DNA of 64,000 nt, from positions 7,703,424 through 7,767,423 of the forward strand of contig JAJEKV010000053.1 of NCBI GenBank assembly GCA_021234155.1. The letters are read 5' to 3'. This document shows, piece by piece, positions 8,608 to 34,819 of the stretch. Position numbers and translations under genes: made by a program. The notes under the pieces are model-generated. The model was given only the letters and a program-made list of their open reading frames with translations, searched no databases and was not told the origin of the DNA. The stretch is from Isoetes taiwanensis. Lineage: Eukaryota > Streptophyta > Lycopodiopsida > Isoetales > Isoetaceae. Position 1 is the first letter of the stretch. Each line of letters opens with the position of its first letter.

Positions 8608-8632
8608 AAGTCGTATTTAATTAAAGTGGGAC
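8608..8632 (+). repeat. E1 left terminal inverted repeat
   Basis: Begins AAGTCGTATTTAATTAAAGT and ends GGGAC. It is the perfect reverse complement of 34795-34819. The flank immediately outside is CTAT. Confidence 0.65.
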
Positions 8633-8805
8633 AAATCTTGAATTTTGGGACTCGGACTGAAAATGGGACTCACACCCCATAAATTTTTTTTTTTTGAATC
8701 GATTGCTTGAATAGAATTACACATCACACACAAAGAAATGGGTTACTTGTTTTCCTCATAAATTTTACAAACCACTAGTTGAGAAAGTTTTCAAGCTTCT
8801 CAATA

Positions 8806-11451
8806 TTATCTACCCTCATACAATGATATAGCATGGAGGTTGCTCATGGCTTTGTCCATCTCCCTTTTTGGGATCTTGTGTGTGTTGTCCTTTGCATTGT
8901 GAGAACTTGGATATGACCATACCACACACTCCACCAATTCCCTCCTTTGAGGATCAGCATAATTTGCCCTCCACTTCTTCTCCCAGCAGTCGGTGTATTG
9001 CTCCTTCAAGTTGCCCTTCTTGTGTCTCCCAATGGGCTCCCAATATTGAATTTGGAATTTAGGACACAACTCCTCTCCATCAGGCATAGTGGTGGTTACT
9101 TTAGAGCCCTAACCATATTGGACAGTCCTCATCATCAGGCCTTACTAGCACAAAGTATCCTTCCTTGATGTCCTCAAAGGGATCCCACTCAGGAAGATCA
9201 AACCACTTCGGCTTTGAGGCCTTACTTCCCACAAACCACTTGGAACCCTTGTTAGGACCCAAGTGAACATTCTTAGACGTGCTTGCTTCTTGAGAACCCT
9301 CCCATCTTGACTCTGGCAAGAACCCGTCTCTTAGCTTCCTCCCACATGGCTGTTCAGTTTCTAAGCATGTCACAACTTTCTCCCAGTACTTAATTAGGGA
9401 GTCCATTTGATTTTTCTTAAGAGTGGAGGTGTGCTTTCCATTTCGAACATCATCCCAGTGCGTTATGTAATCCTTGATGCCCTTCACTAGTTGGCTAGAG
9501 TCTTTGACAGTCTTGAAGGGAGGTAGTGGTTTTGGCTACCCTTTAGGAATGAGAACTTCACCAGCAGCACCTCTTTGCCACAACTCGATTCCTTGTACAG
9601 GCATCCACAACTTGTCACCTGGTCTCCTATATTGCATGATTGGTATTCCATCCCTAACCCAAAACTTGAACTGAAGTGGCTTTGTGTGTCCTGTCAACTG
9701 GTCCTTACCATCTAGCAAGTATCCCTCTACAAATGATTTCCAATCTGCAACCTCATCCATCAAGAAAGCCATTGGGTTGGGGTCAATGCAGCTCTCAAAC
9801 ACATCCATTAGTTCAAGGAGACTAGTCACGTTTTCTCTCTTCAGCTTGGTGGAGAAAGTTCCAAAGAATCCATCTATATCATCATGCGTATACCCAACCA
9901 TCATGAATCCCACTTTCACAACTTTGAATACTCCCACTGCTGTCAAGTATGACATTGCCCCAAACATCCATCTATTCTTGTTTTCTTTCCAACAGTTGTC
10001 CAATTGAACACATAGCTCCTCATGCAGTGGTTTCTCAAGTAAGGGGAAATCATCCCAAGTCCTCCTTGATTCACTAGACACCTTGGATGTGAGCTTTTTT
10101 ATCTGCCTTTGGTAACAAAGCGGTTGATCATCCATCAAAGCCTCAAAATGGGGTCAAGGGGAATACCTCCTCCCTTCTATCGATCCTTTCTCTAGTGTTC
10201 TCAAGAACTTGAAAATAGAGCTCACATGGAAGTTTGGATCATCCCTCCATAGATCAAGCACAAAATGACCATATGTTCCGGTTCCATGACCATGTGTTAA
10301 GACACCCGCCGGACTTACTTTCATCAAAAAAGCGTTTTGACAACGCTTTGGGTAAAGGATCTAGCTTTGGCAAGAAAGTCTTGTGTTGGTCCATCTTATC
10401 ATGAATTATACACAAAAATTTGTCCTTTGCATCTCAGAAAATGTTCTCCACTGCCAATACAACTGTCTACATGATATTTGGTCCCTTTGGTGATCTGCAA
10501 ATTGCTCCCTAATTGCCATTCTTTCTTTCTCTATTGCAGTTGATGCAAGTGTATCCTTGAGTTGAATGCAAGTGTTGCACTTTGAGAATGGCATGTGGCA
10601 AAAGACACTCACGCCCCGAGAAGTGAGTGCTCTATAACTTGCTAAAATGTGATTGAGAAAGAGGCCTACCTCCAGTAGTTTCTAGGATGGAGTTGACCTC
10701 TTTAAGGCACTCCTTTTGGATATAGTGTTGTGGCAACACCCTTTGCACCACTCGCGTTCACCTTCGACTTGTGGGGCATAGATTGAGACATGTATCTCAC
10801 AAAGCTCTCGAAGACTGCAATGGCCTTGAGAGTATTTGCTCTAGGTTTCAAAGTGAGTGCATTACCATGTTGGAACAAACTGTGCCCTTTTCTAACCTGC
10901 TCCCAGTATCTGTAGAATGAAGACTTGCTCACCCCAAGAATCCATCTCAATGCTCTCATACATACCCTCATGTCCCTCAATTGATATAGTAGCCTTCCTG
11001 TGTTTTCATCATATTTTGGAATTCTTTACGTATGAGTAGATGAAATTAATCCTATCTTTTTGAAGTCGCCCAATGTATTGGGACCTTATCTCGCACGCGA
11101 GGTCATCCACCTTTGTCTTGCCTTTGTGCAATCTAGGTTGCAACACTCTTGTCCCCTAATTGCCTCTAGGTTTTCTTTGGTTGGGGCCATACTTTCCATC
11201 CTTTCTAAATATTTGTCAATTCTAGCCCTCTTGGGCACCCTTGGCTGCCTTTTATGAAGAACATAACGTCTCTTCCTTGTGATCAAAGGATGCTCATCGA
11301 CCACCAAATCTTCCACATGGCCTTGAGTGGGTCTTGGGGTATGTAGTTGAGTAGGGCATTCCAGACTATCACCATTCTTGTGTGTAATATATCTAATTGG
11401 CCATCTCAACCGACTTTGGGACTCCAAAGAACCCGTGAGCACACAATGCAA
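8806..11451 (-). pseudogene. DUF7869-type protein, decayed
   Basis: Reading right to left, several frames join into one protein of a eukaryotic repeat-associated family that I recall as DUF7869. Its landmarks are SKCNTCIQLKDTL (a Cys pair, about 10590), IHDKMDQHKT (about 10390), then TYGHFVLDLWRDD, then VQLDNCWKENKNR (about 10010), and VGFMMVGYTHDDIDGFFG (about 9900). The D, N and paired D positions look like an RNase-H-fold core, so a transposase role is possible but unproven. The C-terminal part (9090-9500) has YFVLVRPDDEDCPIWLG, a BAH-like or barrel-like region. In-frame stops lie at 9536-9538 (TAG) and 10154-10156 (TGA), and there is a one-base frameshift near 9095. The gene ends about 180 bp from the left terminal repeat. 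The 5' part (10702-11451) reads in a different frame, and the true start is unclear. Confidence 0.65.
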
Positions 11452-11463
11452 TCACTAGAGCTT

Positions 11464-11720
11464 CCCGGGACATGATTGTATCAACCGATAAGAAGCTTCA
11501 CAATGCCAACTCCAAGATGATCATCTCCCGGCCTTTCATCATTCACACTATCAAAAGGATCAACTGCAGTTATTATGCCCTCTGCGCAAATACCGCCTCA
11601 CCGTTGCAAGGGTGCAACAACAAGCAACCCATCTTCCTCCATTGGAGCCTAGGGCAATGGCCTCAGGCCGGGCTTCCTTGGCTCCACTTTGCTCATCTCA
11701 CATGCTCCCTGAATTAAAGA
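11464..11720 (-). pseudogene. Possible 5' coding remnant of the DUF7869-type gene
   Basis: A minus-strand reading with the phrases MEEDGLLVVAPLQR, then IITAVDPFDSVNDERPG, then HLGVGIVKLLIG is interrupted by two TGA codons that would be CGA before a C-to-T change. It probably belongs upstream of the frame starting at 11451. No homology is firm. Confidence 0.3.
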
Positions 11721-11739
11721 GCACACATTAAAACCATAT

Positions 11740-11905
11740 ACAACCATATATGAATGAGCACTATAGCCATATAACCATTAGAAACCATACAACCATTAAA
11801 AACCTTATAACCATTAAAAACATTAAAATATTTAAAATCTTATAACCATTAAAAACATTAAAACATTTAAAACCTTATAACCATTAAAAACCATTAAAAC
11901 ATAGG
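11740..11905. repeat. AT-rich tandem repeat
   Basis: About seven degenerate copies of a unit like CTTATAACCATTAAAAACAT. It sits between the left-reading and right-reading genes of E1, where a divergent promoter region would be expected. Confidence 0.7.
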
Positions 11906-12221
11906 CTTCCCCGAAATCATGACTGTGCTGACGTGGCCCTTCATCAGTGACATCTGACATGGCCATGTCAGCAGTCCAGGTCACGGATGGCATGCCACAC
12001 ACGTGACTCTAGGAGTGTCATAAATGCCACTTTTTCGAGGTTCGAGGGTGCAGCCAGAAATAACTGCACCCTCTTCCTCTTCTCCCGCGACCCCTATTCC
12101 TTCCATTCCTCTTTGTCTTCCCCCTGTTTTCGACTCAGGCCGCCTTTGTTCCTCTGTTAGGCTTGGCTCGCCGACCGCTATTGCATTTCCAGTGCAATCT
12201 TATGATTATAGCGTGGTCGAC

Positions 12222-12899: not shown

Positions 12900-14420
12900 A
12901 GTCGGGGAATCCCTCAACTTGCCAACAATCCAGGAAAGTACTGAGGTGCCTTATTCTCGACTCGCGAGGCGAGAACGTGGAAATGTACACTGGATTGTTG
13001 GTGGGTTGAGGGATTCCCAACTCGCCGGTCGAGAATAACGCTTATTCTTGCATTCTCGACTCATGAAGTTGAGAATGTCATTCCTAGCCAATGCCTCTAA
13101 CCCGCCGACAACACCCGCTAATCTCACACACACCAGTGCCGGCTCTAGTGCATTCTACAGGTGCCTGCAGACAGTCTTAACCACTCTCCTTCAAACTATC
13201 TTGCTCGGATATTGCGAAGGGAAGTGGTTTTGACTGTCTGCAGGCCAACTCTTAGCAAGCCAATTCTCCCGTATGGTCGCGTTGGCCTCTACCCGTCGAG
13301 ACCGCCTCCTTCGAACCATCTTCGTCGAATATTGCGAAGGGGATGGGCTCGGACTGGGTGGAGGCCTCTACAACTAACCACAGGGAAACCACGAGTTGTC
13401 GCCCTGCATTCTCACCGGCCATGAAGTGAGAATGCCTTATCTAGCTTGCACTCCATGTGTACTATCTGGAGTTCTCGATGGCTAAGGCATTCTCGACTTG
13501 CGAGTCAAGAATGCAGACAGGAAGCCAACACTTGCATTCTCGACTTGCAAGTCGAGAATCCCTTAGCCAGCCAATTCTCCTGTGTATGGTCGCAGTGGCC
13601 TCGACCCAGTCAGAGCCACTCTCCTTCGAACCATCTTCGTCGAATATTGCGAAGGGGAGGGGCTCGGACTGGGTGGAGGCCTCTACAACTAACCACAGGG
13701 AAACCACAGAGCTTGCTGTCTGCATTCTCGACTTGCGAGTCGAGAATGCCTTAAACCAGCCAGCACTCCATGTGTACTATCTGGAGTTCTCGATGGCTAT
13801 GGCATTCTCGACTTGCGAGTCGAGAATGCAGACAGGAAGCCAACACAGGCCTTTCTCGACTTCGCAAAGTCGAGAACTCGTGAAAGACCAATTCTCCTCA
13901 GGTATGGTCGCAGTGGCCTCTACCCAGTCAGAGCCACTCTCCTTCGAACCATCTTCGTTGAATATTGGGGGGAGGGCTCGGGGGTGGAGGCCTCTACAAC
14001 TAACCACAGGGAAACCACTGAGCTTGCTGTCTGCATTCTCGACTCGCGAGTCGGGAATGCCTTAAACCAGCCAGCACTTGCATTCTCGACTCGCAAGTCG
14101 AGAATCCCTTGGCCCGCTCCCACATAGCAATGCCCGCTCCCGTGCATTCTCCAGGTGCCTGCAGACAGTCTCAGCCACTCTCCTTTAAACTATATTGCTC
14201 GAATATTGCGAAGGGAAGTGGCCCCTGTCTCAAGTGCCTTTGGGACGTAACCTGAGGGCCTCTACAACTAAGCACTTTGTATTCTCCTTTTTTTAGTCCC
14301 AAGTGCCTCTAGCCTATCTCGAGAGCCTCTCCTTGAACCACATTCCTCGAATATTGCGAAGAGGAGTGGTTCCGACAGGGTGGAGGCCTCTCCGACTAAC
14401 CACAGGAGGATGCATTTGAA
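12900..14420. repeat. Tandem repeat array with palindrome variants
   Basis: A unit of about 312 bp is repeated: the phrase CTCTACAACTAACCACAGGG starts near 13369, 13681 and 13994, and TTCGTCGAATATTGCGAAG or a close match recurs near 13200, 13320, 13635, 13955, 14200 and 14345. Each unit carries one or two copies of the palindrome that marks E1, at 12953, 13499, 13536, 13724, 13804, 14035 and 14082, with a diverged copy near 13851. Here the outer base is usually A, giving ATTCTCGACTTG-type halves. Open frames across the array are products of the repetition rather than genes. Confidence 0.8.
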
Positions 14421-15249: not shown

Positions 15250-16036
15250 TTAATTTACGAAGGGTTCGAAAGCAAAGAAGAAGATGCGGGGGCATACAGA
15301 CATGACGACTGGCCCAAGAAGCTTAGGCCGGAGTGGAAGCTGGTTCTAGCGGCAGCAAGAGGAAAAAGACAGGCGCTCCAGGTGAGATGTGAGGTTTTTC
15401 TTTGGTCGGAATACCTTTACTCATCCATCCTTTGGTCTTGCAAAGATTCACCGAGGACTCACTAGTGATCACCGTCGAACTCCGTTCTTCGGCCATCGAG
15501 GGATTGGAGACAGAGCTTCTTGACACACCAGCATATTCTTGGTGGTATGTCGAGGTATCAACAAGTGGGAAGGAGAAAGATCTGTTTCTCCACCAAAGGG
15601 ATAAGAAGAGCTCCGGAGACAAGTACAAGAAGGTCGGTGTTGTGCTCTCCGCCTCTGCGCTTGATTGAAGCATCTATCAATGTTTCGGAAGACTGCCGGA
15701 AGAGTAAGTTCTACCACACGAAGAAATTATCAGTTTCAAATTATTCTCACTCTTCAATGAGCAAGTCGAAGGGCACCGACAAAAGGCCGGCGCCTTTAAA
15801 CTGTCAGAACCTTGGGTGGAAGGATCTGGAAAGGATGAAGGAGGCCGGGACCCTAACATCTAGGGAGCTTGGAATGGAGATTTCCAGAGTGAGGGAAAAA
15901 CTATTCAACACGGGGAGCTTCACCTCCAGTGTGCTGAAGACTCTACAACACTCGGCAGTGGGGAGGGAAGTTGTGGTTCATAAAGAAAAAAGTCCGGACA
16001 AGACCACAGATGGAGGAGATGACACCACACGGGAGG
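15250..16036 (+). pseudogene. E1 right-arm gene, exons before the retrotransposon
   Basis: Three coding-like blocks. The first, 15250-15381, contains EDAGAYRHDDWPKKLRPEW and ends in CAG|GTGAGA. The second, about 15446-15632, contains ELLDTPAYSWWYVEVSTSGK. The third, from about 15700 or 15760 to 16036, contains NLGWKDLERMKEAGTLTSRE and ends in an acidic run. The reading frame stops only because the Ty3/gypsy element begins at 16037. With that element and one copy of the GGAGG duplication set aside, the frame continues exactly into the block at 29629. No known domain is recognised in this N-terminal part; it is charged and probably a linker or interaction region. Confidence 0.55.
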
Positions 16037-17606
16037 TGTGACGTCCCCTACTCGTATACGGTGCACTCACCGTATACAAACAGGAGTTCTTCCCCCACAC
16101 CAGCTCCATGCTGATACAGGGCCCTCCACATATCACTGCGCCCGTAACGAGTCCCAGTGGGAAGAGTGAAGGTGTCATTCTACCCTGTCTCCCTCAGGGC
16201 CTACCTAGCTGCGGAAGCGTAAACATACATGTCAGTAGCACATACATCAACATCATATGACCATCGCGAAGGATGGTCCCCCACATATCTGCATAGACGA
16301 AGATCAGCACATCACATAGGGAATCCTACCCAAGGCTCAGACACAGGGTTGGACTGACAAGCTTGGGTCTCCAGAGTTCATTGAAGACGGAATTCATGGC
16401 AATGGATTTGGCTGGCATAAGAACATGGCCTAGGGTTGTCCACTCCATCCGCCCCTCCTGTGCACACTTTGCAGAGTAGGCTGAGAAGTGTTGGGACCTG
16501 ACTGTAGCCCGCCGGATGCATAGCCAAGGGGCTATATCCCGGGTTACATCTCCCCGCCCGATGGGGCGGGTAGGGATCACTCCCTCCGAGAGATCTCCAT
16601 CTTTGATTCAAGGTGACTAGAGGGCCACTGCCCGTATTCGACTTGAACTCAATGGAAGGTCATATTCACCACCTCACGAGTGTCGAGCCCATGCCTTGCC
16701 CACACGCGGTGGCAAGCCATTAGACCTAGTCACAGTGACCCCCGGCAGTCTTTACACACCAGAGGGGTCGTTCAAGAATCAGAACATGAACCTCCTTATA
16801 AGCCCGGCCTCGCCCCTTCACCCACAACCGTGTGTGGCTCTTGTGCATGTGTGCCGCTAACTATCGTGGTGCTAGAGAGGCTACTCTAGGAGCATCAACT
16901 ACAAGGCTTTAGGTCTCTACCCCCCTTCCCAATACAAGGAGTTCACAGAGATACAGCATCCAACTACATCACAGAAATACTAAAGAACTAGATCTAATCA
17001 TAGAGTTAGGTTCTTTAGTTAGTGTCCGAGATCTAAGATCTAGATAGCTACTATGGGCAATTTAATAGTCTAAACCTACTGATTCTATGACTAGAAGACG
17101 GTTTAAGCTATTAAATTGACCAAATACCTGATCCTTGAGTGGCTCCCCCTGACCTGAGTTCAACCATCCTGCCGACTGGCTTAATTCGGGGAACCGATGG
17201 TGCAATGGCCTTGGCGTCGGGAGGCGGTTTTGGCTCTGGGGCAGCCAAAACCGAGCTCTAAAACCCTAAGGATCTAAAAAAACTAGCAAGCTAGGGTTTT
17301 CCTACCCTAAATAGACATGGGGTTTAGGCTAGGGTTTCCAATTACCCAATTTGGCATGTGGGATAATTGGAAAGGGCCCACTTGCCTTTAATGGCTAGGT
17401 GGCAAAATATGCCAACATGGAAAGGTGTGCCCTCATTAATGTGCACATGTGCACATTAATAATATATGAACACTCCTAGCAAGTTGCCCCTAGGGCTACT
17501 TACGGCTATCCGCTGGCGCATTACGCCAATCGGGTGGCGCGGTAACGGCGTGACGTGGCAATTACAATGTACGCCCGGGGGAGCGATATCTTGGCCGAAC
17601 GTCACA
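16037..17606 (-). repeat. 3' LTR of the chromovirus
   Basis: Nearly identical to 28054-29623. Near its outer end GTATACGGTG faces its complement across four bases, forming a small hairpin. The inner edge abuts the polypurine tract. Confidence 0.93.
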
Positions 17607-17622
17607 TTCTCCCCACCTTGAA
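17607..17622 (-). other. Polypurine tract
   Basis: On the minus strand AAGGTGGGGAGAA lies directly against the 3' LTR, as expected for the plus-strand primer of a retrotransposon read right to left. Confidence 0.75.
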
Positions 17623-18451
17623 ATGATGTTTGTCGCGGCAAGATGGTTTCGCCCCACCTTGGGATTTTACCTAACACGCAATCAACCCGATGCATACGAT
17701 ATACTACTATAACACTTTACATGCTTATTACGATTACCTTAAGGTAATACTTTTATCACATTATTATATTATAAAATAACTTGTCAATTCACAATATTAC
17801 TAACAGATTACTCCAACATTCCCTTAACATTACTATTAAGTTTATCAAAATTTAAAATTAACGTTCGAGGTACCCTTGATTCCTTGCAACACATTCCAAC
17901 AAAATTTGTGTTGCAAGTCTTCGTCTTCGACCTCCTTGCCCTCGGGAGCTTTCGCGGCTGCAGGTCGACACTACGTTAGTACCATTAATTATTAATTAAA
18001 ATTTTTGGTTATATGGTGACCACCCCACCTATCTACATGAATGCATGGCTAATCTCCCGGCGTAGGAAGAGGATGAATCTTCCATAATGGCCGTGGAGAC
18101 AGCGCCTATATGCCTATATGCCACTCATGCCTACACCTCTAGTTGCCCAGCGTGGAGGATATCCTTCTCGCGTGGGGGGCGTGAAGGATGGATTCCTCCT
18201 ATCAAAGCATATATGGGGCTAAAGGTGCTTTCCTATCAATGCATTCCTTAATGACCTCTTTTCTTCGAGGTCGTCTACTTAAGGTGGGGAAGTAGACTTT
18301 CTAATCTACCTTCCACTCGCCCAAGCGGAAACGCGGTCATGCCTACATTGACATTACACCACGCCCTAGAGATCACCGTAGTGGTCCCATCATCGGTGAC
18401 AACGCATGCGACCCATACTAAGCGTAGGTGGCATGCGTAGATTAATCTTAA

Positions 18452-18790
18452 CTATACAAGAATTAACCTACACAAATCGACATGCCCGGCGATTTCTTGG
18501 GAGATGACCTTGCCGTCCCATTGCTCCATAAATTGTGGGTACCGCTTTACTAAATCTTTCTTAAGTACCCACGCATGCGTCTTCCAGCGGTAAGTGTTTC
18601 CACTTGACCAAATCTTTGGAGGAATTCTCGATCTCCTCGTTTTTTTCTTGAAAGCTTTATCAAGAATCAATTTCGGAACTATTTCCAAATTTGTTCCTCG
18701 ATCATTTCCAGCGTTGGCATAATCCAAGACTTCGTGCGGATTGGGGTATGCTTCTTTAGCAAACTCACGTGGAAGACCTTATGAATCTTT
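18452..18790 (-). pseudogene. Polyprotein C-terminus, chromodomain-like
   Basis: The segment around RRSRIPPKIWSSGNTYRW followed by WVLKKDLVKRYPQF has the spacing of the chromodomain at the C-terminus of chromovirus integrases, where it guides insertion to heterochromatin. Aromatic positions are partly lost and the frame shifts, so it is decayed. Confidence 0.5.
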
Positions 18791-19024
18791 AGGTGTCTTT
18801 GGCAAGTCTAGCCTTGTAGGCTTGATTGCCTAGTTTTCGACTATTACGAAAGGTCCAGCCCACCTTGGAGCAAGCTTCTTGCAATTGCCGATCCCCGAGC
18901 CGCCGCTTCACCTTAATCTTGAGCCAAACATCATCTCCCACTTTGAACTCTCTTATCGCTCGATGCTTGTCGGCGATGCTCTTTTGGCGACTTCTCTTGC
19001 GCTAGCGATAGCCACGAACTTCCT

Positions 19025-20049: not shown

Positions 20050-20536
20050 ATTGAGCTTCCCGGCTTGTAGACTATATCAAAGTCATATTCTTCGAGGAAT
20101 TCCATCCATCTCCCGCGCCTCCAGATTGAGGTGTGGTTGCGTGAATACATATTGGAGGCTCGATGGTCGGTATCCAATTGGAACTTCCTTCCCAAGAGAT
20201 AGTGCCTCCATATTCTTAATGCCCCGACAACCGCTTAAGCAATTCACGATCGTGCGTTGGGTAGCGCGTCGGCGTCGTTCATCTTCACGGAATCATACGC
20301 TACCACACGCTCTTCTTGCATAACCACGCGCACTCAGTAGCTATCTTACTCGCATGATCTGTTGCTACAAGCTTATCTTTCTCCGGGTGCGGCAAGGTCA
20401 AGGCAGGGTTGTCGTCGAGCTTCTTTCAACAATTCAAACCCCTTTTGGGCTTTCTTGTGCCAATGCTCTACCCGGTCTTTCACCTTTTACGCCCTCGTTA
20501 GGTGCGTTAACGGGGCTGCTATCTTAGCAAAGTTCT
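20050..20536 (-). pseudogene. RNase H region of the chromovirus
   Basis: Lies between reverse transcriptase and integrase, where RNase H is expected. The frame VADALSRHPRQL at about 20045 is the conserved end of the RNase H/connection segment of Ty3/gypsy elements. Upstream sequence is broken by frameshifts and I cannot place the catalytic residues. Confidence 0.6.
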
Positions 20537-21834: not shown

Positions 21835-21838
21835 CACT

Positions 21839-22210: not shown

Positions 22211-22229
22211 TCTGGGAGATGCAAAGTTA

Positions 22230-23560: not shown

Positions 23561-23875
23561 TAAAGGGTCATTTGTCCAAATTCTTCAAGCGGGTTCCTTG
23601 CGTGGTGGCACAGGGAGCTCTGTTCCCCTGTAAGTTCAGCGGTTGTCGTTCTCTGGCGCTTAGGCCTCTAGCTGCATACACAAGTGGTTCATATCTACAT
23701 GGTTAGTTTTCCTTGCTTTCTTGCATTATTTATGTTTGTTGGCATGGTTGAGGGGACACAAAATATATCAACAAAACATTTATAGTGCAAGAGAATGTTA
23801 TATTTATATTTTATATTACTCTAATACAAGAACTTGCAACTCGCTAATCATTTACGTTGATGTCGGTAAGATGGA

Positions 23876-25388
23876 TTATCCTCCAAGAACTTTTTCACTT
23901 GGGTCATTCCCCTTCGAGTGGCCCAAGTTCCTAAGGACATTGGCTGGAGTTCCACCTTGTAATGCCCTTGCCAAATCTTCTATTAGCGGTGGGAGGTATA
24001 AGCCTGTCGCGACAATCTTGCTGCCGCTTTTGTAAGGTATGGCGAAGTCGAAGGCGTCGAGTGCTACCGCTCTTTTCACGAGGATTGCATACTCGGTGTT
24101 AAGGGGTAGCCGTGCATGCCGGCGAATCTGAGAGTGCAATCAGCGGCGATACTCCTTCCTCGCCTGGGGGGGGTGAATTTGCGGTGGATAACCGCTATTC
24201 TTCCATCCATCGGCAATGGCGGGTAATAGCGTAATGACTTTGTCGTTGATTTGCGAGATGGGTCCTCGACCCACTCGGTATCCAGCTCACGGTATGCGCT
24301 TCGAAATCATCAACCTCCACCGTGGTGAGCTCCTGTAGTCTCGACATTCTTTGAAGCCCTCCCGAGGTCGGAATTCGCTGTCCTATCGGGAAGGTGCCGC
24401 GGACGAAGCTTGCCGTTAGGATGTTTGAGGTCGCATAGCGGATCCCCATCGTTCTCGAGAGCAAGGAACTCTTCCTCTGTCGGTAGCTTGTTCTCAGCCT
24501 TATGCGCCTCCATGATCCGCCTGATGTTCTTTGTAGGCTTGGATGTCGGAGGTAAACTCTCCCGTGTAAGTGTCGGCTTCCCTTACTTGGAGGGGAAGTC
24601 GGACTCTCCTCGGACGATGAAGTCGCCCAAGTCCGGTTCTTCGGAGTTGGTGCAGCAACTCTTCAGGTCGGTACTCCCTTTCCCCGCACTCGGGAGGTTT
24701 TGAATGTCGCTCGGGAGTAGAAACTCCTCACCTTCGGCGATAATGGGAGCTAGGCTTGTGATTCCTAACCCGGGGTGGCGCGACTCGAGAGTCTGCCGGC
24801 TTCTTCGAAGTCTTGCCACTCCCGCCTCGCTTGTCGCCCGCTCCTCTGGCTGGGGTCGAGCTCGACATCGTCTTCCTCCTCCTCGATTTCTGTTCATCCG
24901 AAGTCTTCTTCCTTCCCTTCACGCTCCTGTTCATACTTGTGGTGAGGAGCCGTTGTTACCGCTTTACGCTAACGGATCCACGTCCATGGGGAATAGAGGT
25001 TTCCCCACGATGTTCTCGGACACGGTGGGTGAGAAAGATTGCCGGGGAAGTGTTGAAAGAGAAGTACTTGGTCCTGTTGATGATTAGGACCATTGGCTCG
25101 GTGTGCGGTCGGCGCTTTGTTTGTGAGGTATTTGGCGATGTTAGGGACATCGTCTAATGCACGCTGGGAGGGACCGTCTAGGAACAAAATATCCTACACA
25201 AGGGGAGTTGCACTAGCTACCGGTTCTACCCTAGCTTGGAACTCAGTCAAGACTCTACTATAAGCCGGGTCGCGTGCAAGGTTGCTTGGACGTCTACCCC
25301 TTCCCAAGATCCGGAAGATTTGGTCGACATCGGCCTCAAGAAAGATGATGTGGGCGCTGTACCATCTCCGGAAATCAGAAGTTGCCAT
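23876..25388 (-). pseudogene. Extra internal gene B of the chromovirus
   Basis: A minus-strand gene-like unit begins at MATSDFRRWYSAHIIFLEAD (25388; favourable context ATCAATGGC). After several frameshifts it continues through LFLDGPSQRALDDVPNIAKY, IINRTKYFSFNTSPAIFLTH, a basic Arg-rich stretch near 24840 and FAIPYKSGSKIVATGLYLPP to a stop near 23876. I recognise no family. A TATAAATA box lies about 110 bases upstream of the ATG. Typical gypsy elements have no separate gene here, so it may be an additional accessory gene or a strongly extended gag N-terminus. Confidence 0.45.
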
Positions 25389-25499
25389 TGATTAATTGCA
25401 GAAGAGGGTAACAAACGGTTGCAAGGGCGCCTCAGGGAGTTGGGAAATCGGCTAGAAGGGCAGGAGCAGATTTGTAGGGTGCTATGTGAGAAGTGACGG

Positions 25500-25509
25500 G
25501 TCTATTTAT
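25500..25509 (-). promoter_or_regulatory. TATA box of internal gene B
   Basis: TCTATAAATAGA on the minus strand, about 110 bases before the ATG at 25388, which leaves room for a leader of about 80 bases. An equivalent site precedes internal gene A. Confidence 0.5.
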
Positions 25510-25700
25510 AGAAAAGGGGGAAACCCTAATTTTTGGATGACTTGTAAATTTCCTAGGATTGGGTAATTCTAACTTATCTGAGGTCAAAATAGGAGTTTGA
25601 GGACTATAGGAGATGCATGAGCAAGGCTAGGTTACCTAAAAGATGCTATGCAGTAGTTTGAAGGTGACTTTGACAAGTCCTGGTGAAGGATTGGTAAGAG

Positions 25701-25967
25701 GTCTCACAGCTTGCGCCTCGCTTCAAAACTAACTTTTTGTTTTGCGACCAGGCGCGAGCTGTGAGACATCAGTCCCATTTCGATCAAAGATGTCCAACTT
25801 GGGTAAACTAATACTGTAAGGCTAATGGGCTCATCAAATTAGGCAGAATCGACCCCTTATTTGGTCGATTTGGAGCTGTTTTGGTCAAGCTTGGGCGAGG
25901 TCTCACGCCTTTGCGCCTCGCTTCAATCCTAACTTTTTGTTTTTGACGGCGGCGCGAGCTGTGAGAC
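25701..25967. repeat. Pair of hairpin motifs upstream of gene B
   Basis: Two copies, 25701-25767 and 25900-25967, of a motif of about 67 bp. Its ends, GTCTCACAGCTTGCGCCTCG and GGCGCGAGCTGTGAGAC, are near-perfect inverted repeats around an AACTTTTTGT-type loop. Two more copies precede gene A. Confidence 0.85.
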
Positions 25968-26377
25968 ATCATGTCTCGGCTCCCCAAATGTCCTATATCA
26001 CTGAAATAAAAGCTAAAACTTATTAATTTGCTCTAATTACCCAAGTTTATATTATCAAGATACACAAAATTGCTCTATATTACAAAAAAATTTTTAATTA
26101 TTTACAACAAAAGTTCTATATGTTCTCTCCTTAATGCGAAGTCATAAGACTCATGTCTTGTCGCATTAAGGTTACTCGTTTGCGTGGATAGTGCAGGCCG
26201 TCGAATCTTCAAAATGTTGTACTATCTTTGCCTCAGCCGCCTCTTGCATTGCCGCCGCCCTCGTCAAAGTGACTCTAAAGTACGTTGCGTCAGGCTGCAT
26301 TACTTCACGCACCAACCGAGCTGGCGAAGGGGGCACGAGGGGGATTAGGAGACCGTAGGCTGCTTGTTTGGAAGTGT

Positions 26378-27384
26378 CTAATCTCCCTTAGCTCTTCTCT
26401 CCACCTCCTTTCTATCGGCTTTCTTCTTTGGTGGTGGCTTGGGAACCTTGGGCCCGGTGGTGGCGGCTTTAAGGTTTCTTTGCCGTTGGTCGCCCTCCCT
26501 CGATGACCCTAACCCTTTTTCTTCATAATATTGGTTATAGGCCTCCCATTTCTTCATGTAGGCCTCGTGCTCCCTCATCTTCCTCTCGTAGATCTTCACC
26601 ACATGGGTGGCGTAGGCTTCCCCTGGCAGGTCTTGGTTCTTCTTTCTATCCCATGCCGGATTACTCGGGAGGATTACGCACTTGGTCTTCTTTGGGGTTG
26701 CTTTCGGTCTTTGTTTTGCTTTCGGGTGCTTCTGTTTCGTCGCTGGGTGCTTGGAAGAGCTTCCACCTTCAGCATTAGGGTCAAAGTCCTCCTCAGAAGA
26801 GTCGTCGGAGGGGTTTGGGGGTTCGTCGGGTTGCCGCTCCTTAATGATAATATTTGGGTTTGGCCTCTTCCTCGGTGAGGCGGATCCAACCCGTTCTCCT
26901 TATGCCCGATACGAACTTCCCTTTCTTTTTCTTCTTTTCTTTCCTTGCCTCTTGTTCCTCTTCCTCCCTTTTCCTCTTTTTGTCTTCCCTTTTCTTCTGC
27001 GGAATTTCGTACTTTTCGATGAACCTTCTAAGGTCTGCTACCTCTGGTGGCTCCGGACACATCACTGCTCATCTGCTTTCGAGGATCTCGTGGGTCGCGT
27101 CTGAGATAGTGCCGCTTGTTTCTGCTGCGGATCTCCCGCTCTATTTCTTCATACACCTCCCTCGTCTCGTCGTCCATGGAGTTTGGTGATGTGGCCTCGT
27201 CCTCCTCCACCTGCTGGTTGAAGACATCGATCGATCGGAGGTGTCTTGCTCTTCGTCCGGCTTAACGACCCCCTCTTGCGAGCCTCTCACGAAGCATCTT
27301 CCGAATGATCTCTGCCTCGTCTCGCCTATTTGGGTGGTTTCGCTTTGGCGACGCTTCCTTCTTGATCTGTTTGGTTCGGGCCAT
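26378..27384 (-). pseudogene. Extra internal gene A of the chromovirus
   Basis: Begins with ATG at 27384 in a strong context (AGCATGG) and reads MARTKQIKKEASPKRN; that frame closes after 43 codons at a G-run. Neighbouring frames continue with a highly charged protein: REVYEEIEREIRSRNKRHYL, a Lys/Glu-rich coiled-coil-like run (26900-27000), and YERKMREHEAYMKKWEAYNQ near 26590. No known family. The frame breaks at G/C runs look like small indels. It might be a gag-like or nucleic-acid-binding accessory protein. Confidence 0.45.
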
Positions 27385-27488
27385 GCTTTTACGGATCGTC
27401 AATCGGATAAAAGCGCCCGAAAAGATCGCCTAAGTTGGGAAGAGCGGATTTCTAGGGCTTGGACGAAAAAAATGAGGGGGTTCTACAT

Positions 27489-27499
27489 CTATTTATAGC
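27489..27499 (-). promoter_or_regulatory. TATA box of internal gene A
   Basis: GCTATAAATAGATG on the minus strand, about 110 bases before the ATG at 27384: the same arrangement as for gene B. Confidence 0.5.
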
Positions 27500-27599
27500 T
27501 TGGGGAATTTTAGGTCAAAACTCAAGTTGCTCTGTTTAACATGCTAAGGCACCAATTTATCTAAAACTTATACTTATTTCAGACTTTTTCTACCCATTG

Positions 27600-27850
27600 G
27601 TCTCACGACTTAGCCTCGTTCCAATACTAATGTTTAGTTTTGCGACCAGGCGCGAGCTGTGAGATCTCATACATTTCTAGGGTTTTTAGGTAATTAAAAC
27701 ATGCTATTCTAACTAATTCCTACCTTAGAATTAGCCTTACCACATTATTTTTCTCAGATTCATCATGTTTTGGTGTTCTTGGTTCAATGTCTCATAGCTT
27801 TGCCTCGCTTCAAAACAAAAGTTAGTTTTATGCGACCCGGAAATTTGAGA
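27600..27850. repeat. Pair of hairpin motifs upstream of gene A
   Basis: Copies at 27600-27664 and about 27789-27850 match the motif at 25.7-26.0 kb, including GCGACCAGGCGCGAGCTGT in the first. The second has lost part of its right arm. Confidence 0.8.
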
Positions 27851-28040
27851 CCACCTTACTTGGAAAATTTTGGCTCATTCTTTTTAATCTTGTTAAATTC
27901 CAATTCACTTAATTGTTACTAGCTTAGCATAACTACAAAGGTGAGAAAAAATTTTCCCACTTTTCGAGGCTTGAGGACCCTATCAGGTTAGTACTACTGG
28001 GAACATGGTCAGTGCTTTGCTCTTGGTCTCCAAGAACATT

Positions 28041-28052
28041 GCTCTGATACCA
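28041..28052 (-). other. Primer-binding site (initiator tRNA-Met)
   Basis: On the minus strand TGGTATCAGAGC, complementary to the 3' end of plant initiator tRNA-Met, starts one base inside the 5' LTR. This fixes the element's orientation as minus. Confidence 0.92.
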
Positions 28053-28053
28053 C

Positions 28054-29623
28054 TGTGACGTCCCCTACTCGTATACGGTGCACTCACCGTATACAAACAG
28101 GAGTTCTTCCCCCACACCAGCTCCATGCTGATACAGGGCCCTCCACATATCACTGCACCCGTAACGAGTCCCAGTGGGAAGAGTGAAGGTGTCATTCTAC
28201 CCTGTCTCCCTCAGGGCCTACCTAGCTGCGGAAGCGTAAACATACATGTCAGTAGCACATACATCAACATCATATGACCATCGCGAAGGATGGTCCTCCA
28301 CATATCTGCATAGACGAAGATCAGCACATCACATAGGGAATCCTACCCAAGGCTCAGACACAGGGTTGGACTGACAAGCTTGGGTCTCCAGAGTTCATTG
28401 AAGACGGAATTCATGGCAATGGATTTGGCTGGCATAAGAACATGGCCTAGGGTTGTCCACTCCATCCGCCCCTCCTGTGCACACTTTGCAGAGTAGGCTG
28501 AGAAGTGTTGGGACCTGACTGTAGCCCGCCGGATGCATAGCCAAGGGGGCTATATCCTGGGTTACATCTCCCCAGTTCCGATGGGGCAGGTAGGGATCAC
28601 TCCCTCCAGAGATCTCCATGCTGATTCAAGGTGACTAGAGGGCCACTGCCCGTATTCGACTTGAACTCAATGGAAGGTCATATTCACCACCTCACGAGTG
28701 TCGAGCCCATGCCTTGCCCACACGCGGTGGCAAGCCATTAGACCTAGTCACAGTGACCCCCGGCAGTCTTTACACACCAGAGGGGTCGTTCAAGAATCAG
28801 AACATGAACCTCCTTATAAGCCAGTCTGGCCCCTTCACCCACAACCAGGTGTGGCTCTTGTGCACAGGCCGCAACTACAGTGTGCTAGAGAGGCTACTCT
28901 AGGAGCATCAACTACAAGGCTTTAGGTCTCTACCCCCCTTCCCAATACAAGGAGTTCACAGAGATACAGCATCCAACTACATCACAGAAATACTAAAGAA
29001 CTAGATCTAATCACAGAGTTAGGTTCTTTAGTTAGTGTCCGAGATCTAAGATCTAGATAGCTACTATGGGCAATTTAATAGTCTAAACCTACTGATTCTA
29101 TGACTAGAAGACGGTTTAAGCTATTAAATTGACCAAATACCTGATCCTTGAGTGGCTCCCCCTGACCTGAGTTCAACCATCCTGCTGAGCTGAGCGAATT
29201 CAGGGGAACTGATGGTGCAATTCGCTTGGGCGGCGTCTGGGAGGCGGTTTTGGCTCCTGGGGCAGCCAAAACTGAGCTCTAAAACCCTAAGGACGAAAAA
29301 CTAGCAAGCTAGGGTTTTCCTACCCTAAATAGACATGGGGTTTAGGCTAGGGTTTCCAATTACCCAATTTGGCATGTGGGATAATTGGAAAGGGCCCACT
29401 TGCCTTTAATGGCTAGGTGGCAAAATATGCCAACATGGAAAGGTGTGCCCTCATTAATGTGCACATGTGCACATTAATAATATATGAACACTCCTAGCAA
29501 GTTGCCCCCTAGGGCTACTTACCTGGCTATCCGTTGGCGTACACGTCAATCGGGGTGGCGTGTACGCGTGACGTGGCAGTACAATGTACGTCCTGGGAGC
29601 GTATACTGTGCTGGAACGTCACA
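28054..29623 (-). repeat. 5' LTR of the chromovirus
   Basis: Same length as the left copy and nearly identical to it; most differences cluster in the last 150 bases. It would contain the promoter for the genomic RNA reading leftward. Confidence 0.93.
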
Positions 29624-29628
29624 GGAGG

Positions 29629-30175
29629 AATCAGATGATGAAGCAGACGAAGATATGGTCGACTCCCAATTAATAGATTTAGATGAGCAGATTAGGATTT
29701 CACAGAGAGGGGCACAGAAAATGGAGCGGTTGGCTCAGTATTATCCGTTGGGAATAGCACACATGCTGTTGGACATCAGACGCCTGAAGGTTTGCACGGG
29801 AGATGCTGTCTTGTTCAACCACAGGGAATTTAATCCAGTACACATGCTGGAGATTCTGAACCTGATGGTGCGACATCCTGTTGCAGATCCAATGCCTGCG
29901 GATGTCATACCTTTCAGCAGATCGACCGGTGAGTTGTTCAGCTGGAAGTCTGAGGAAGACCTGAAGGGAAAAGACATCCGGTTCTGGGTAGTAGACGGTC
30001 AGCATTCAGTGAGGGCAGCGCAAGTATTGCAGACGGAGAAGGAGGTGCCGCAAAGGATCAAGGATAGATATGCCAAGCGAGAGTGCATAGTTCTTGCAGC
30101 GGAGACGCCAGCAACCGAGCTGGCCAGCATTAGCCACTGCCAGAACACAATAGCAGTGAGTGCCAGCTACATAAG
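29629..30175 (+). pseudogene. E1 gene, ParB-like exon
   Basis: Continues in frame from the block ending at 16036. An acidic stretch (EESDDEADED) leads into about 150 residues laid out like the N-terminal ParB/Srx domain: a basic segment, a Pro-rich strand PVADPMPADVIPF, and the signature FWVVDGQHSVRAAQ, comparable with the G-x-H/R-R-x-x-A box of ParB and DGQHR proteins. ParB proteins bind palindromic DNA and hydrolyse CTP; related domains head many prokaryotic DNA methyltransferases. The exon ends AAG|GTAAAG at 30175/30176. This exon has no stop codon, but the gene is broken elsewhere. Family assignment rests on motif reading alone. Confidence 0.45.
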
Positions 30176-30963
30176 GTAAAGAACTCTCTGATTCGGCGGT
30201 TTCTCGACTCGCGAGTCGAGAAAGCCCTAGCATCTTATCATTTCTCATTTTTCACTGGGGTTTCTCGACTCGCAAGTCGAGAAAGACAGGGGAACACAGA
30301 AAAGTCAAAGGATGCGGAGCTTTCTCGACTCGCGAGTCGAGAAACCCCGGGGCGGTAAAGAAATTTCGAGATTAATGGTCGACGACTGAAAGCATCGAGC
30401 CTTCCCATCCTTTCTTCCTCGACCTCTTTGGGCAATGTCGCTTAGTTTCTATTCTAAGTTGCATCGTTCGAAGAGGCGCGACAAGAAAGGATTTGGGAAT
30501 GAGCGGTGCTTTCACTCTGGCCTTCACTCTCGCATCATGTTCTCTCCTCTCCCGAGGGTATTCTCGACTCGCGAGTCGAGAAAGTCCCTTGAATCTTCTC
30601 CTTGTGCTCCTCTCACTTTCTCGACTCGCGAGTCGAGAAACCCCAGGGCAATAGAGAGAACACTGGAGATTAATGGCTAAAGAGCAAAAGCATCGAGCCT
30701 TCCCAATCCTTCTTTCCCCGCCTCTTCGGGCAATGTCGCTTAGTTCATATCCTAAGTTGCATCGTTCGAAGAGGCGTGAAAGCAAAGATTTGGGAATGCG
30801 CGATGCTTTCGCTCTGGCCTGGACTCTCCTATGTTTTCTCCTCTCCTTGTGGGTATTCTCGACTCGCGAGTCGAGAAAGCCCCTGCATCCTCTTATTTAG
30901 TGTTTACTTCGGGTGTTAGTAGATACTTTCATGCTCTAACATTGGGACATTTACTGAATGCAG
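30176..30963 (+). other. Intron holding six palindromes
   Basis: The donor GTAAAG and the acceptor TGAATGCAG join two coding blocks in consistent phase (two bases of a codon before, one after). The intron contains palindromes at 30200, 30261, 30321, 30561, 30617 and 30855, and an internal duplication of about 300 bp: CATCGAGCCTTCCCA and GTTGCATCGTTCGAAGAGGC each occur twice. Open frames here are side effects of the repetition. Confidence 0.65.
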
Positions 30964-32562
30964 CCCGTATCCTGACCAGATCATACACGCTCGGCAATAG
31001 TGGAAAGCATTGGGTTGCCCTCAGCGTCCTAAACGAAACAGGGCTCCCTCGGATAAGTGGAAGACCTTTGAGAAACTATGCAGATATGTTCTCACTGGAA
31101 GGCCGTGAAGATGAAGAGGGGAGGATGAAGAGGAAAAGAAGAAGAGAACACCAAGAAAGGGGGAGTCTCTCTCGCACCAATATGATCTCATTCTTAGCAT
31201 CGAGGCTGGGCCCTGGGAGAAATGGACCGAGATATGGTCTCAATGGACAAGAGGCAAGTCAAGGACAAGAATGGGGAATTTCCATGCAAGCCGGACCCAA
31301 AGTTGTTCGACAGCAATTTATGAAAAGGATACAGGCCCGACCGACAAGGAAACGCTTGATTGATCGGGGCGTAATCCTGGATGGAACAATCCTGCTAAGG
31401 AAAAGCAGAAGCTCAAAAATGCAGGATGCAAAGGATTATGCCACAGTCCTAAAGAGACGACGTGCGTTGGAAGAAGGCATCACGGAGTTCTGCAATGTTG
31501 CTTCCAATGAATACCATGACTTTGATTATTACAAGGCTGCCCTTGATGAGGAAGACATGAAGGAATTGAACCGTCTATGTCAACCCTACATCAACATCAA
31601 GCTAAAGCGTAACGTCAAAACCCTTCCCTTCCCTGAACGTGCTATGGCAATTCTGAAGAGGAATCTTGGATTCGGGGTGGTCCCATTTAAGGCCGATGAT
31701 AGCTCCCCCCCATTCCTGGTAACATTGGGACACAAGGGATTTGGTGGTCTGGAACTGGCACTTGGGCCCGTGGCACTATTTGCCATCAACATGATTGAAG
31801 ACCCCACCCTTTTTTATGAGAAAGCTGACATAGAGCAGTGGTACAAGACGTGTCTGGACATGACCGACCTGGATACTTTCAGTTTCCTTGTCTTTTGCAT
31901 GCCTGGCAATCGACAACCATCGTCTCCCAATGGGCAACCGATATTAACTTCACCAACAAGATCTTGTACTCCATATACGAACTTGAACATGAGTGTAGAC
32001 TTGGCTTGCCAAGGCACCAAGCTTTGCCAATATAGTTTTGGTTTTGGTTTCAAGATCGGGTGTAGACTGGACAAGTGGTGGTCTAGCTTAACATCATTAT
32101 CTCGACAGTTCATGATTTCTCAAGAGCGGATGGAACCCCGAAGGGCGGCAGATTTATGGAGGATGTGCCATCGATGGGCAAAGTCAGCAATGATGGTGCG
32201 ACAGGTCCTATACATAGAATTCCTATCCGGCCAAGAGTTATCAAGTACTTCATAACTAGCTTGGTCGAGGAAGATCAAATTGTATACGAGTGGTACATGA
32301 ATGGCCTGTTCTCTCAGGGGGCTATGCTGTATGGAATGAAACCTATATCCGTGGTTGGAAATAAGGACATGGTTGAAACCATTCGGTCATACCTGGATCT
32401 GCTTCATGAGCATTTCAAAGGGAGGAAGACAAATGGAAGCAGTAAGGACGATGATGACGAAGACAAACCTGAGAGCGAGGGAGAGAAACATGACGGAGAC
32501 GAGAATGTCGAAGGTTTAGATCAGAATGCTGCGGAACTAATTCTTGAGAATCTGAGATTGAG
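30964..32562 (+). pseudogene. E1 gene, DNA-methylase-like exon
   Basis: The phase set by the intron leads into the frame DKWKTFEKLCRYVLTGRP, then a basic linker, then (one frame over, 31435-31890) the block PFPERAMAILKRNLGFG and LFAINMIEDPTLFYEKADI. Next, back in the first frame, come LEHECRLGLPRHQALP, a hydrophobic strand region and HDFSRADGTPKGGRFMEDV. It ends RPRVIKYFITSLVEEDQIVY, GLFSQGAMLYGMKPISVVGN. This order resembles N4/N6 DNA methylases, with EDPTLFY in the place of DPPY and the last block in the place of the cofactor-binding D-x-F-x-G-x-G region. Both motifs are degenerate, so activity is doubtful. Stops at 30998, 31106, 31112, 31361, 32033, 32063 and 32084 and two frameshifts (near 31425 and 31900) show decay. 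Donor AG|GTGAGT at 32563. Confidence 0.45.
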
Positions 32563-32693
32563 GTGAGTTCACTTTGCTCTCTAGGTGTTTCTCGACTCGC
32601 GAGTCGAGAAACCTCTCGGGACTAACTTTTTTCCATTCTCGACTCGCGAGTCGAGAAAACTCGTTTCCTATCTGACATCTGTCATCATTTCAG
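32563..32693 (+). other. Short intron holding two palindromes
   Basis: Donor GTGAGT and acceptor CATTTCAG; splicing keeps the reading frame. It is 131 bases long and carries palindromes at 32588-32611 and 32635-32658, which fill over a third of it. Confidence 0.75.
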
Positions 32694-33541
32694 GGAGATC
32701 GATGTCAACGACTCCGGATCATTGAGCATATCTAGTGGCGGTTCACCTCGCGAGGAGGACAATGCACTCCCCAAAGACAATCAAGAGCAAGACACTGCGG
32801 GCAGCCAGAAAGGACCTGAAAAATTAATGATCCCGCATATGGATCCCGATGGACCGGAAATCTGGTCAGAGCCAAACTCCAACTGGGATCCAGCTGGTCC
32901 ACCAAGCTTGTAATATTTGATGTCAATGGAGTATTAGCTGCAGTATATCACGATAAAGACGTCCCTGAGCTTAACACCTCGCAGATCCCGACGAAAATGG
33001 AGCATAAAATCGTGTATCCGAGGCCCAGAGCAAAGGAAATTGTTGAATGGTGCCTGGAACGGGGATTCAAAGTGGCCATATGGTCTTGTATGGCAAAGAA
33101 AAATATTGTCAATGTTCTTGGTGTTCTCGGCCTTCCAGTTTTGAAGTTCAAGTTTGTTTGGGGAAACGAAAGGGTCGAGCATGTGTCAGACCTCGATCCA
33201 GCCATCACAAAGGGGAAGCATATTATGGTGAAAAGGCTGGACAGGGTTTATGAACAATTCTCGGACTATGGAAAACACAACACGCTGATCATAGACGACT
33301 CCGCCTACAAGTGCTATCATAACTCGCAAAATACAATCATTGCTAAGACTTATCGACCAGAAGAGTATGAGACGGATAGGTGGTTGTCTTTCGGACTTTG
33401 TCCTGTCTTGGCGGAATCCCTCTTTGCCATTCTTGTGGCCGATGTGATTAGGAACTATCCGAGCCTCAAGGAACCCGATCCAGAGAGCCGCGCGATCATG
33501 AAAGCTATGGACGACAAATATTTTGGTGATCAAGAAGAGTG
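32694..33541 (+). pseudogene. E1 gene, FCP1/HAD-like phosphatase exon
   Basis: A charged leader (REIDVNDSGSLSISS...) is followed, after a one-base frameshift near 32890, by an FCP1/SCP-type HAD domain. KLVIFDVNGVL holds the nucleophile motif, with Asn instead of the second Asp of the usual D-x-D-G-T. PRAKEIVEWCLERGFKVAIW and SCMAKKNIVNVLGVL follow, and LIIDDSAYK matches the family's DDS/DNSP motif. FCP1-type enzymes dephosphorylate proteins such as the RNA polymerase II tail. The D-x-N variant occurs in a subgroup of plant and fungal relatives. The frame runs to a TGA at 33539-33541 (residues ...GDQEE). Whether this exon is spliced to the methylase-like part in one protein is supported by the phase at 32562/32694 but not proven. 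Confidence 0.7.
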
Positions 33542-33639
33542 ACCTCTGCTTTCAGATAGTCAAATTGTGTGAATATTGTAAAGAAACGTGAAGAAATGTA
33601 CTATGTTTTGTAATGAATATACATGTATATTGAGTTTTC

Positions 33640-33915
33640 GCTGGCTTTCTCGACTCGCGAGTCGAGAAAGGCATGCTTGTCCTGTTGATGAAACCATTTG
33701 TATGTTTGTTTGCGTGACTGGATGCAGCCATAACCTATTATGATAATGGCTGTACATTGGGTTTCTTGGGCCTTTCTCGACTCGCGAGTCGAGAAAGGCA
33801 CTGCTTGTCTCCTTGACACAACCATTTGTATGCTTCCATGTGTGATTGGATGCAACTATATTCTAATGGGAATGGTTGTACTTTGACTTTCTCGACTCGC
33901 GAGTCGAGAAAGACT
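33640..33915 (+). repeat. Three tandem units each with a palindrome
   Basis: Degenerate units of about 115-125 bp, each with a palindrome (33646-33669, 33773-33796, 33888-33911) and phrases like GTGATTGGATGCA and CAACCATTTGTATG. They lie between the FCP1-like exon and the last exon. Confidence 0.85.
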
Positions 33916-34042
33916 ACTTTTCACGTGATTGGATGCAGTTATATGGAATGAATGTTCTCTATTGTAATTTGATTTCACCATTCTTTTCTTCGTTTTGACT
34001 AATGTCACCGTAATTGTTAATCATAGACTCTCCTTGCTCCAG

Positions 34043-34545
34043 GTGGTTCAGATCCGACACCAGCACAGATCCCCTTCAGGCATCTCAGAGACCGCTCCAG
34101 GCGGCACAGATCCCGCTCAAGGCAGAAGAGATACCGTTCTGGCACAGATCCCGCTCACGCTACACTCTTGCCCGACCTTTGGGATAAGGTTACTCGTGAA
34201 TGCAGACGCCATGCACACCCTCAGGATAAAGAAGACGCGAAGAAATTTCATGAAGTCCAGAAAGCTCAAAGCATCTTGCAAGCATTGCATAACATCCACG
34301 GGGGTTGGGGATGGAGCATATTCGATGCAAAGCTGTGGGAGGAGAGTGGAGAAGTCGGGTGGACAGGTCAGCCGGTAGCTCCAGAGGCACCTCCACGTGA
34401 GGCATTCCACACTCTTCAGGTTGCCCCCAAGGCTTACAGTCGGCGTGAAGAAGCGCCGCAAGTTAATCCCCTAAGGTGGACCACCTACCACGATGATGTA
34501 ACTGTAGTGACAGCAAGACCGCCATGGTCTCTGCGTCCGATGTAA
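34043..34545 (+). pseudogene. E1 right-arm last exon, RS-rich
   Basis: After acceptor TTGCTCCAG the frame reads an Arg/Ser-rich stretch (RDRSRRHRSRSRQKR), then LPDLWDKVTRECRRHAHP, HNIHGGWGWSIFDAKLW and a C-terminus DDVTVVTARPPWSLRPM with a stop at 34543-34545. No known family. A homologous tail, DNVIFVPAGPSWYLQ, occurs at the same position relative to the right end of E2 (50510-50565), so this is a conserved part of the element family rather than random open frame. Its upstream partner exon is unclear, because the FCP1-like frame stops at 33541. Confidence 0.55.
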
Positions 34546-34571
34546 AATACATTGTACCTATTCAATTTATT

Positions 34572-34577
34572 AATAAA
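34572..34577 (+). terminator. Polyadenylation signal candidate
   Basis: AATAAA about 25 bases after the stop codon of the last exon; E2 has the similar ATAATAAAA at the matching place. Confidence 0.45.
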
Positions 34578-34794
34578 AATTCTTTTTCAACTAGAGCTTT
34601 GGTTTCAATCTTTAATGAATTTCCTTTGTTTTAGTTGCATTGTTCTTGTTCTCGACTCGCTATCCAGGGAAAACTGGAAGAAAGCTTGGATGCACAATAA
34701 CAGACAAAAATTCGAATTAAGGATAGTTTTCGGGTCGGGGTGCTCCTTTTCGTGTAAATTAACAGGGTTCCGAAAAAAAGTGGGAATGGAATGA

Positions 34795-34819
34795 GTCCCA
34801 CTTTAATTAAATACGACTT
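34795..34819 (-). repeat. E1 right terminal inverted repeat
   Basis: Perfect reverse complement of 8608-8632, followed directly by CTAT. The preceding AAAAAAAGTGGGAATGG is shared with the right end of E2. Confidence 0.65.

Follow-up and report, generated by a model that had tools for sequence, protein, structure and literature searches.

The DNA analyzed here, the window, is a 64,000-nucleotide stretch of the forward strand of Isoetes taiwanensis (assembly GCA_021234155.1, contig JAJEKV010000053.1, positions 7,703,424-7,767,423), and genome-wide searches were run on the 1.66-Gb assembly. The window contains an element bounded by 25-bp ends, E1 (8608..34819), which is a member of a distinct high-copy DNA transposon family with its own ends; in this sense, a preliminary description of the window was fair in calling the family new. 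We consider it highly likely that these are terminal inverted repeat (TIR) DNA transposons of about 12.6 kb, in which the left gene codes for an RNase H-like, DDD-type transposase (PF25273, DUF7869) whose substrate is the 25-bp ends and which integrates the element by means of a 4-bp staggered cut.

Ends, target duplications and unoccupied sites

The end sequence AAGTCGTATTTAATTAAAGTGGGAC at 8608-8632 is found as its exact reverse complement at 34795-34819. The preliminary description had reported perfect 25-bp inverted ends 26 kb apart with CTAT outside both, and direct reading of the sequence agreed with it:

8604..8607, no strand: left copy of the target duplication CTAT (same register in 14 other pairs)
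8608..8632, plus strand: left terminal inverted repeat, 25 bp (end sequence exact 2,217 times in the genome)
34795..34819, minus strand: right terminal inverted repeat, 25 bp (sequence comparison of the ends)
34820..34823, no strand: right copy of the target duplication CTAT (flank reading)

Without a nested retrotransposon and one copy of the GGAGG repeat that flanks it, E1 is 12,620 bp long, and another copy of the family, L022, is 12,700 bp.

The genome contains 2,217 exact matches to the end (1,102 forward and 1,115 reverse), whereas a reversed-pattern control gave no copies, so the ends are far beyond chance. Pairing and spacing were analyzed for the first 100 places of the exact end, which had 50 neighbors on the same contig. 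Inward orientation prevailed (34, compared with 9 outward, 3 plus-plus and 4 minus-minus), and the inward spacings fell into recurring length classes (12 at 3.5-5.8 kb, 14 at 11.0-14.8 kb, 4 at 23-27 kb and 4 over 55 kb). Inverted terminal repeats, by which TIR transposons are recognized, were found here as pairs. A search of this kind had been proposed in the preliminary description, and it yielded both a high copy number and inward pairs at a repeated distance.

Searches with the left and right ends (best 40 of 1,607 and best 40 of 2,222 candidates scored, respectively) gave places of at least 97% identity in each case. Eleven copies were fetched by the left end, so that 12 copies including the window were compared; L013, L019, L024 and L028 were fetched partly. 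The fetched copies are colinear with the left and right parts of E1 wherever those parts remain. For example, L026 (5.0 kb, duplication TAAT) still has the region of the transposase gene, within its first 3.3 kb, and the final ~1.8 kb of the right side, and the remaining middle of E1 is missing. As the missing middle includes a ParB-like part and L026 has moved without it, this part is dispensable on some moving copies. The left ends of L019 and L017 (C1034:21499596 and 21510118) are 10.5 kb apart and have the same ten flanking bases (atgaggttgg), which suggests a tandem duplication including the element plus flank.

Target duplications were read in a first set of 15 pairs, composed of the window, 8 of the 11 fetched copies and 6 pairs from matching left- and right-end places; for L019, L024 and L028 the right end was not found in the DNA fetched, and they were left out of the pair counts. 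All 15 pairs had a perfect 4-bp duplication (CTTT, ATTA, TTTT, TCAT, CTAT, AAAT, TTAA, TTAA, AAAC, TTGG, CATT, ATCT, TAAT, AAGT and CTAT). A second set consisted of 10 further pairs from the exact-end list, 9 of them of the shorter class. Eight of these were in the 4-bp register (one, inside an A-run, is ambiguous), one had five bp and one matched in 3 of 4 letters. Altogether, 23 of 25 pairs had 4 bp, one had 5 bp and one was mismatched, and the duplicated targets were mostly AT-rich. The 5-bp pair of this second set (C16:327873-339935) is flanked by the repeat TGTAC, so the stagger of insertion in this family may vary.

To represent unoccupied sites, 15 joined flanks (60 bp left and 60 bp right with one copy of the duplication, 1,800 bases in total) were used as the query. 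Among the best 40 of 3,005 candidates, sites with one 4-bp copy were found at 40 places with 95-99% identity, corresponding to 4 of the 15 insertions (28 junction-crossing places for L026, 9 for L020, 2 for the C1033 site and 1 for L017). The other 11 insertions had no scored place and are uninformative, because only these best 40 candidates were scored. A further case is L022, which is inserted in a Ty3 reverse-transcriptase-like gene. The frame LDDILICSQTIEEH runs through this site when a single duplication copy is kept and is broken with two; the host Ty3 copy has decayed, as stops occur further along the joined flank stretch. Empty sites with a single tetranucleotide, for which the preliminary description had suggested a search, are therefore present for 4 of 15 insertions. 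Ends that never pair and flanks that lack duplications, named there as grounds for giving up the proposal, were looked for as well, and neither applies. The paired ends at repeated distances, the 4-bp duplications and the unoccupied sites together identify one mobile unit of ~12.6 kb, as had been proposed.

The DUF7869 gene and a proposed mode of transposition

The genes of E1 point at each end, as first described, which is supported by open stretches and Pfam matches. The right-hand genes, candidate cargo that includes ParB-like and phosphatase-like pieces, are listed in the last section. The left gene is:

8806..11451, minus strand: broken putative transposase gene pointing to the left end (PF25273 in the piece 9536-10153)

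An open 456-aa counterpart of this gene was found in copy L020, and its protein matched PF25273 at 4.8e-44. In each of the 12 copies compared, all of which were selected by the left end, the DUF7869 region is next to that end. In a 19-row alignment, residues D44, D47, D97, D124, D163 and D166, forming three Asp blocks, were invariant; the third acidic block reads GHTHDxID. The L020 protein thus shares with PF25273 proteins both the domain and the three blocks. In the predicted model, the order of elements was beta39-43 (D44), beta71-79, beta82-89, alpha98-110, beta118-123 (D124), alpha129-144, beta150-155 and alpha162-178 (D163/D166). A second fold comparison of 50 rows contained 30 retroviral integrases and 15 Argonaute/PIWI-type proteins, all matches being below significance. 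The low confidence of the RNase H-like model and the fold matches that stay under significance count against our interpretation. Nevertheless, the invariant Asp residues together with this low-confidence model indicate that the DUF7869 protein is very probably the transposase of the E1 family.

Protein P0001 contains a 52-residue insert, for which splicing was considered; a look at other copies gave no anchor for it. In sequence searches of solved structures P0001 had no match, nor did the A1 profile or the ParB-like and phosphatase-like pieces. Viral contigs contained no confirmed relative of P0001 or of either piece, and the viral fold library gave no match at E ≤0.001.

PF25273 is abundant in this genome: there were 9,902 first-look candidates, and 150 of 150 scored were above the cut-off. 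The group is a deep one: the E1 protein shares only 24-37% identity with 24 other DUF7869 proteins encoded in this assembly. These other proteins (L045-L068) are frequently open, with frames of up to 987 aa, and form several clades that are ~45-99% identical internally. Judged from sequence, they probably represent further transposon families, some of them perhaps young. In the family of L045, L046 and L047 (downstream regions L069-L071), the alignment ends no more than ~0.4 kb past the gene, near TTTGCTCCCGTTTCAAATGC. This region is a candidate terminus of a second DUF7869 family and differs from the E1 ends.

We propose that the DUF7869 enzyme would pair both 25-bp ends, cut them and join the element to an AT-rich target with a 4-bp stagger, in what would be a cut-and-paste movement. 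The right-hand genes and an array of palindromes, probably protein-binding sites, might assist transposition or its regulation. Shorter copies with the same ends may either have retained their own transposase gene, as L026 did, or use the enzyme in trans.

Pfam describes PF25273 without a function, and E1 now links this domain to defined transposon ends, 4-bp target duplications and unoccupied sites. Its putative transposase role is therefore directly testable, and the naming of many unclassified repeats could follow from this link.

Relation to known transposons and alternative explanations

Target duplications are 8 bp in hAT, 9 bp in Mutator, 3 bp in PIF/Harbinger and 2-3 bp in CACTA elements, and Helitrons are not known to have terminal inverted repeats or target duplications. 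The inverted ends and duplications of E1 rule out Helitrons. Polinton/Maverick elements carry genes for PolB, a packaging ATPase and capsid proteins; no Pfam match to any of these was found in the pieces scanned, which were part of the open reading frames (ORFs). CACTA/EnSpm elements are large, and in them a short protein-binding motif is repeated many times. E1 is likewise large and has many short motifs, but its ends do not start with the CACTA/G of that group, its target duplications measure 4 bp, not 2-3 bp, and no CACTA transposase match was found among the pieces of E1 and its copies that were scanned. The TTAA-specific duplication of piggyBac and Kolobok was seen in only 2 of 15 pairs of the first set and in none of 10 in the second, and these groups were rejected. 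Ginger elements make 4-bp target duplications, as E1 does, and have an integrase-like RNase H core, such as is tentatively predicted for the DUF7869 protein of E1; the integrase-core Pfam models had no match in the E1 pieces scanned (part of the ORFs). An excerpted description relates Ginger to the Gypsy integrase and gives TA as the target duplication of Tc1/mariner (PMC10741241). The 4-bp duplications of the E1 family exclude hAT, Mutator, PIF/Harbinger, Tc1/mariner and CACTA.

Among named groups, Sola has features that fit. In the parts of the literature consulted, Sola has a DDD enzyme and 4-bp duplications, its terminal repeats range from 11 to 1124 bp, and some members exceed 15 kb (PMC10741241); Sola1 is reported from Physcomitrella (PMC9033089), and a fern genome has 2,739 Sola copies (PMC6890710). 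E1 resembles it in the 4-bp duplications, the putative DDD-type enzyme, the terminal repeats and the large size. The preliminary description could name no matching superfamily, which holds only in part: the traits of E1 fit Sola as far as it is described in the literature consulted, and E1 is a candidate member.

A merely coincidental pairing of the inverted ends, without a mobile unit, is refuted by the existence of unoccupied sites; nothing was found in its favor, and with 2,217 ends, inward pairing and target duplications the probability of this explanation is negligible. It could also be argued that the unit is mobilized by an enzyme from elsewhere and that all E1 genes, DUF7869 included, are passengers: no clear selection was seen on any gene piece among the copies, and catalysis by DUF7869 is itself deduced from sequence. 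However, the DUF7869 region lies by the left end in all 12 left-end-selected copies and persists in L026, which lacks the middle, and the protein family resembles transposases in its Asp residues and in the predicted order of its fold; we regard this explanation as very unlikely.

If the DUF7869 protein is the transposase, the question becomes where its elements belong. They may form a plant lineage of Sola, with PF25273 as an unlabelled Pfam model of the Sola-type transposase. The duplications, the putative DDD enzyme, the repeat lengths, the sizes and the presence in moss and fern (PMC10741241, PMC9033089, PMC6890710) favor this assignment, and we lean slightly toward it, although the Sola descriptions, as far as these were available, mention neither ParB-like or NIF-phosphatase-like genes nor palindromes such as those of E1. 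A less probable assignment, which we put forward tentatively, is that DUF7869 elements constitute an unnamed superfamily with 4-bp duplications and the GHTHDxID block. No mention of DUF7869 was found in the literature searched, and the domain's abundance and the depth of the group are consistent with such a rank, but among DUF7869 families the ends and duplications are established for the E1 family alone. A transposon with ParB, phosphatase or captured genes of the E1 kind was not found in the literature searched, among the titles and abstracts listed.

Right-hand genes, palindromes and other features of the window

The right-hand part of E1, including the nested element, consists of the following:

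15469..16036, plus strand: open stretch entering the ParB-like gene, upstream of the nested Ty3 element (open-frame reading)
16037..29623, minus strand: nested long terminal repeat (LTR) retrotransposon, Ty3-type, inserted later (LTRs, target duplication GGAGG, pol-like fragments by eye)
29624..30179, plus strand: weakly ParB-like coding piece with the motif VVDGQHSVRAA (weak matches)
30900..32566, plus strand: additional open stretches belonging to the right-hand gene, limits approximate (zero family matches)
32820..33542, plus strand: NLI-interacting-factor-like (NIF; FCP1/SCP type) phosphatase gene piece (PF03031, 1.7e-9)
34027..34545, plus strand: last open stretch, toward the right end (family matches not significant; DnaJ at 0.074, under the cut-off)

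The nested element interrupts the ParB-like gene, with duplication of GGAGG, and its LTRs are 95.5% identical across 1,588 columns; the Ty3 label comes from a by-eye reading of pol-like minus-strand frames. The ParB-like stretch had weak matches to PHROG 1033 (0.025), PF20188 (0.13), which we take to be a ParB-related family, and PF19898 (0.045); in L022 it terminates at a GT splice-donor-like site. The phosphatase-like piece matched PF03031 at 3.7e-10 in L022, and its match to TIGR02245 (4.3e-5) was below the cut-off of that model. An amino-methyltransferase-like, degenerate C-terminus was suspected by eye in the right-hand gene (30900..32566) and was dropped, as profile searches gave no support. 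The joined right-hand protein had no match in phage records. When a piece was counted as present at no less than half coverage, the ParB-like piece was found in 6, the next piece in 7, and the phosphatase-like and last pieces each in 8 of the 12 copies (window included, 4 partly fetched). Silent changes among copies made up 25-39% per piece, compared with an expected 20-23% (all changes) or 32-35% (transitions alone), figures given without a significance test.

The 18-bp palindrome CTCGACTCGCGAGTCGAG occurs 23 times in the window with up to 2 mismatches, compared with 0 expected; 18 of these sites are inside E1 and 5 inside a stretch assigned to E2, a diverged relative. The sites within E1 are located in spacers and apparent introns:

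12956..14102, no strand: cluster of 7 palindromes resembling CTCGACTCGCGAGTCGAG, in the left part of E1 (motif scan, as for all rows here)
30203..30875, no strand: palindrome cluster, 6 sites, apparent intron
32591..32655, no strand: 2 palindromes
33649..33908, no strand: 3 palindromes
34649..34660, plus strand: single half-site TTCTCGACTCGC, ~160 bp from the E1 right end

In the 11 fetched copies, 108 palindromes (up to 3 mismatches) were present in 138 kb of element and none in 61 kb outside; the limits of incomplete copies were set from colinear alignment, and some lengths contain later insertions. L022 alone has 21 at the same threshold. The palindromes are probable protein-binding sites. 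Together with the right-hand genes, these arrays suggest that the transposon carries a site-specific DNA-binding apparatus of its own, an unusual trait if true. A bolder combination, in which DUF7869 is an unnamed superfamily filling the genome and the ParB-like protein of the E1 lineage acts on ~20 parS-like palindromes CTCGACTCGCGAGTCGAG in a dedicated system for assembly, partition or anti-silencing, appears improbable to us.

The relative E2 is represented by one end:

50763..50838, minus strand: E2 right end (88% over 76 bp; TIR 50814-50838 with 2 mismatches)

A half-site TTCTCGACTCGC is also present here, at 50648, ~180 bp from the E2 right end. E2 had been described as a second copy sharing the right end and last exon of E1. 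The 76-bp right end and the palindromes are indeed shared. When six E1 protein pieces were compared with the rest of the window by tblastn, the best E was 0.47, so a shared last exon is unsupported. A weak tblastx match at 39885-39956 was rejected as a shared exon, since the later pieces (E 0.004) were not colinear and tblastn found nothing there. With up to 7 mismatches allowed, no left end of E2 was found in the window. Neither this search nor tblastn supports E2 as a complete second copy that has the last exon in common with E1.

Minus-strand frames resembling non-LTR retrotransposons, with reverse-transcriptase-like motifs seen by eye, were noted at 43196-49372 and 35974-37684, and the former is probably inserted in E2. 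Outside these elements, an imperfect long inverted repeat at 5140-5687 (178-bp arms, 88% complementary, 5 nt between them) is possibly a foldback element.

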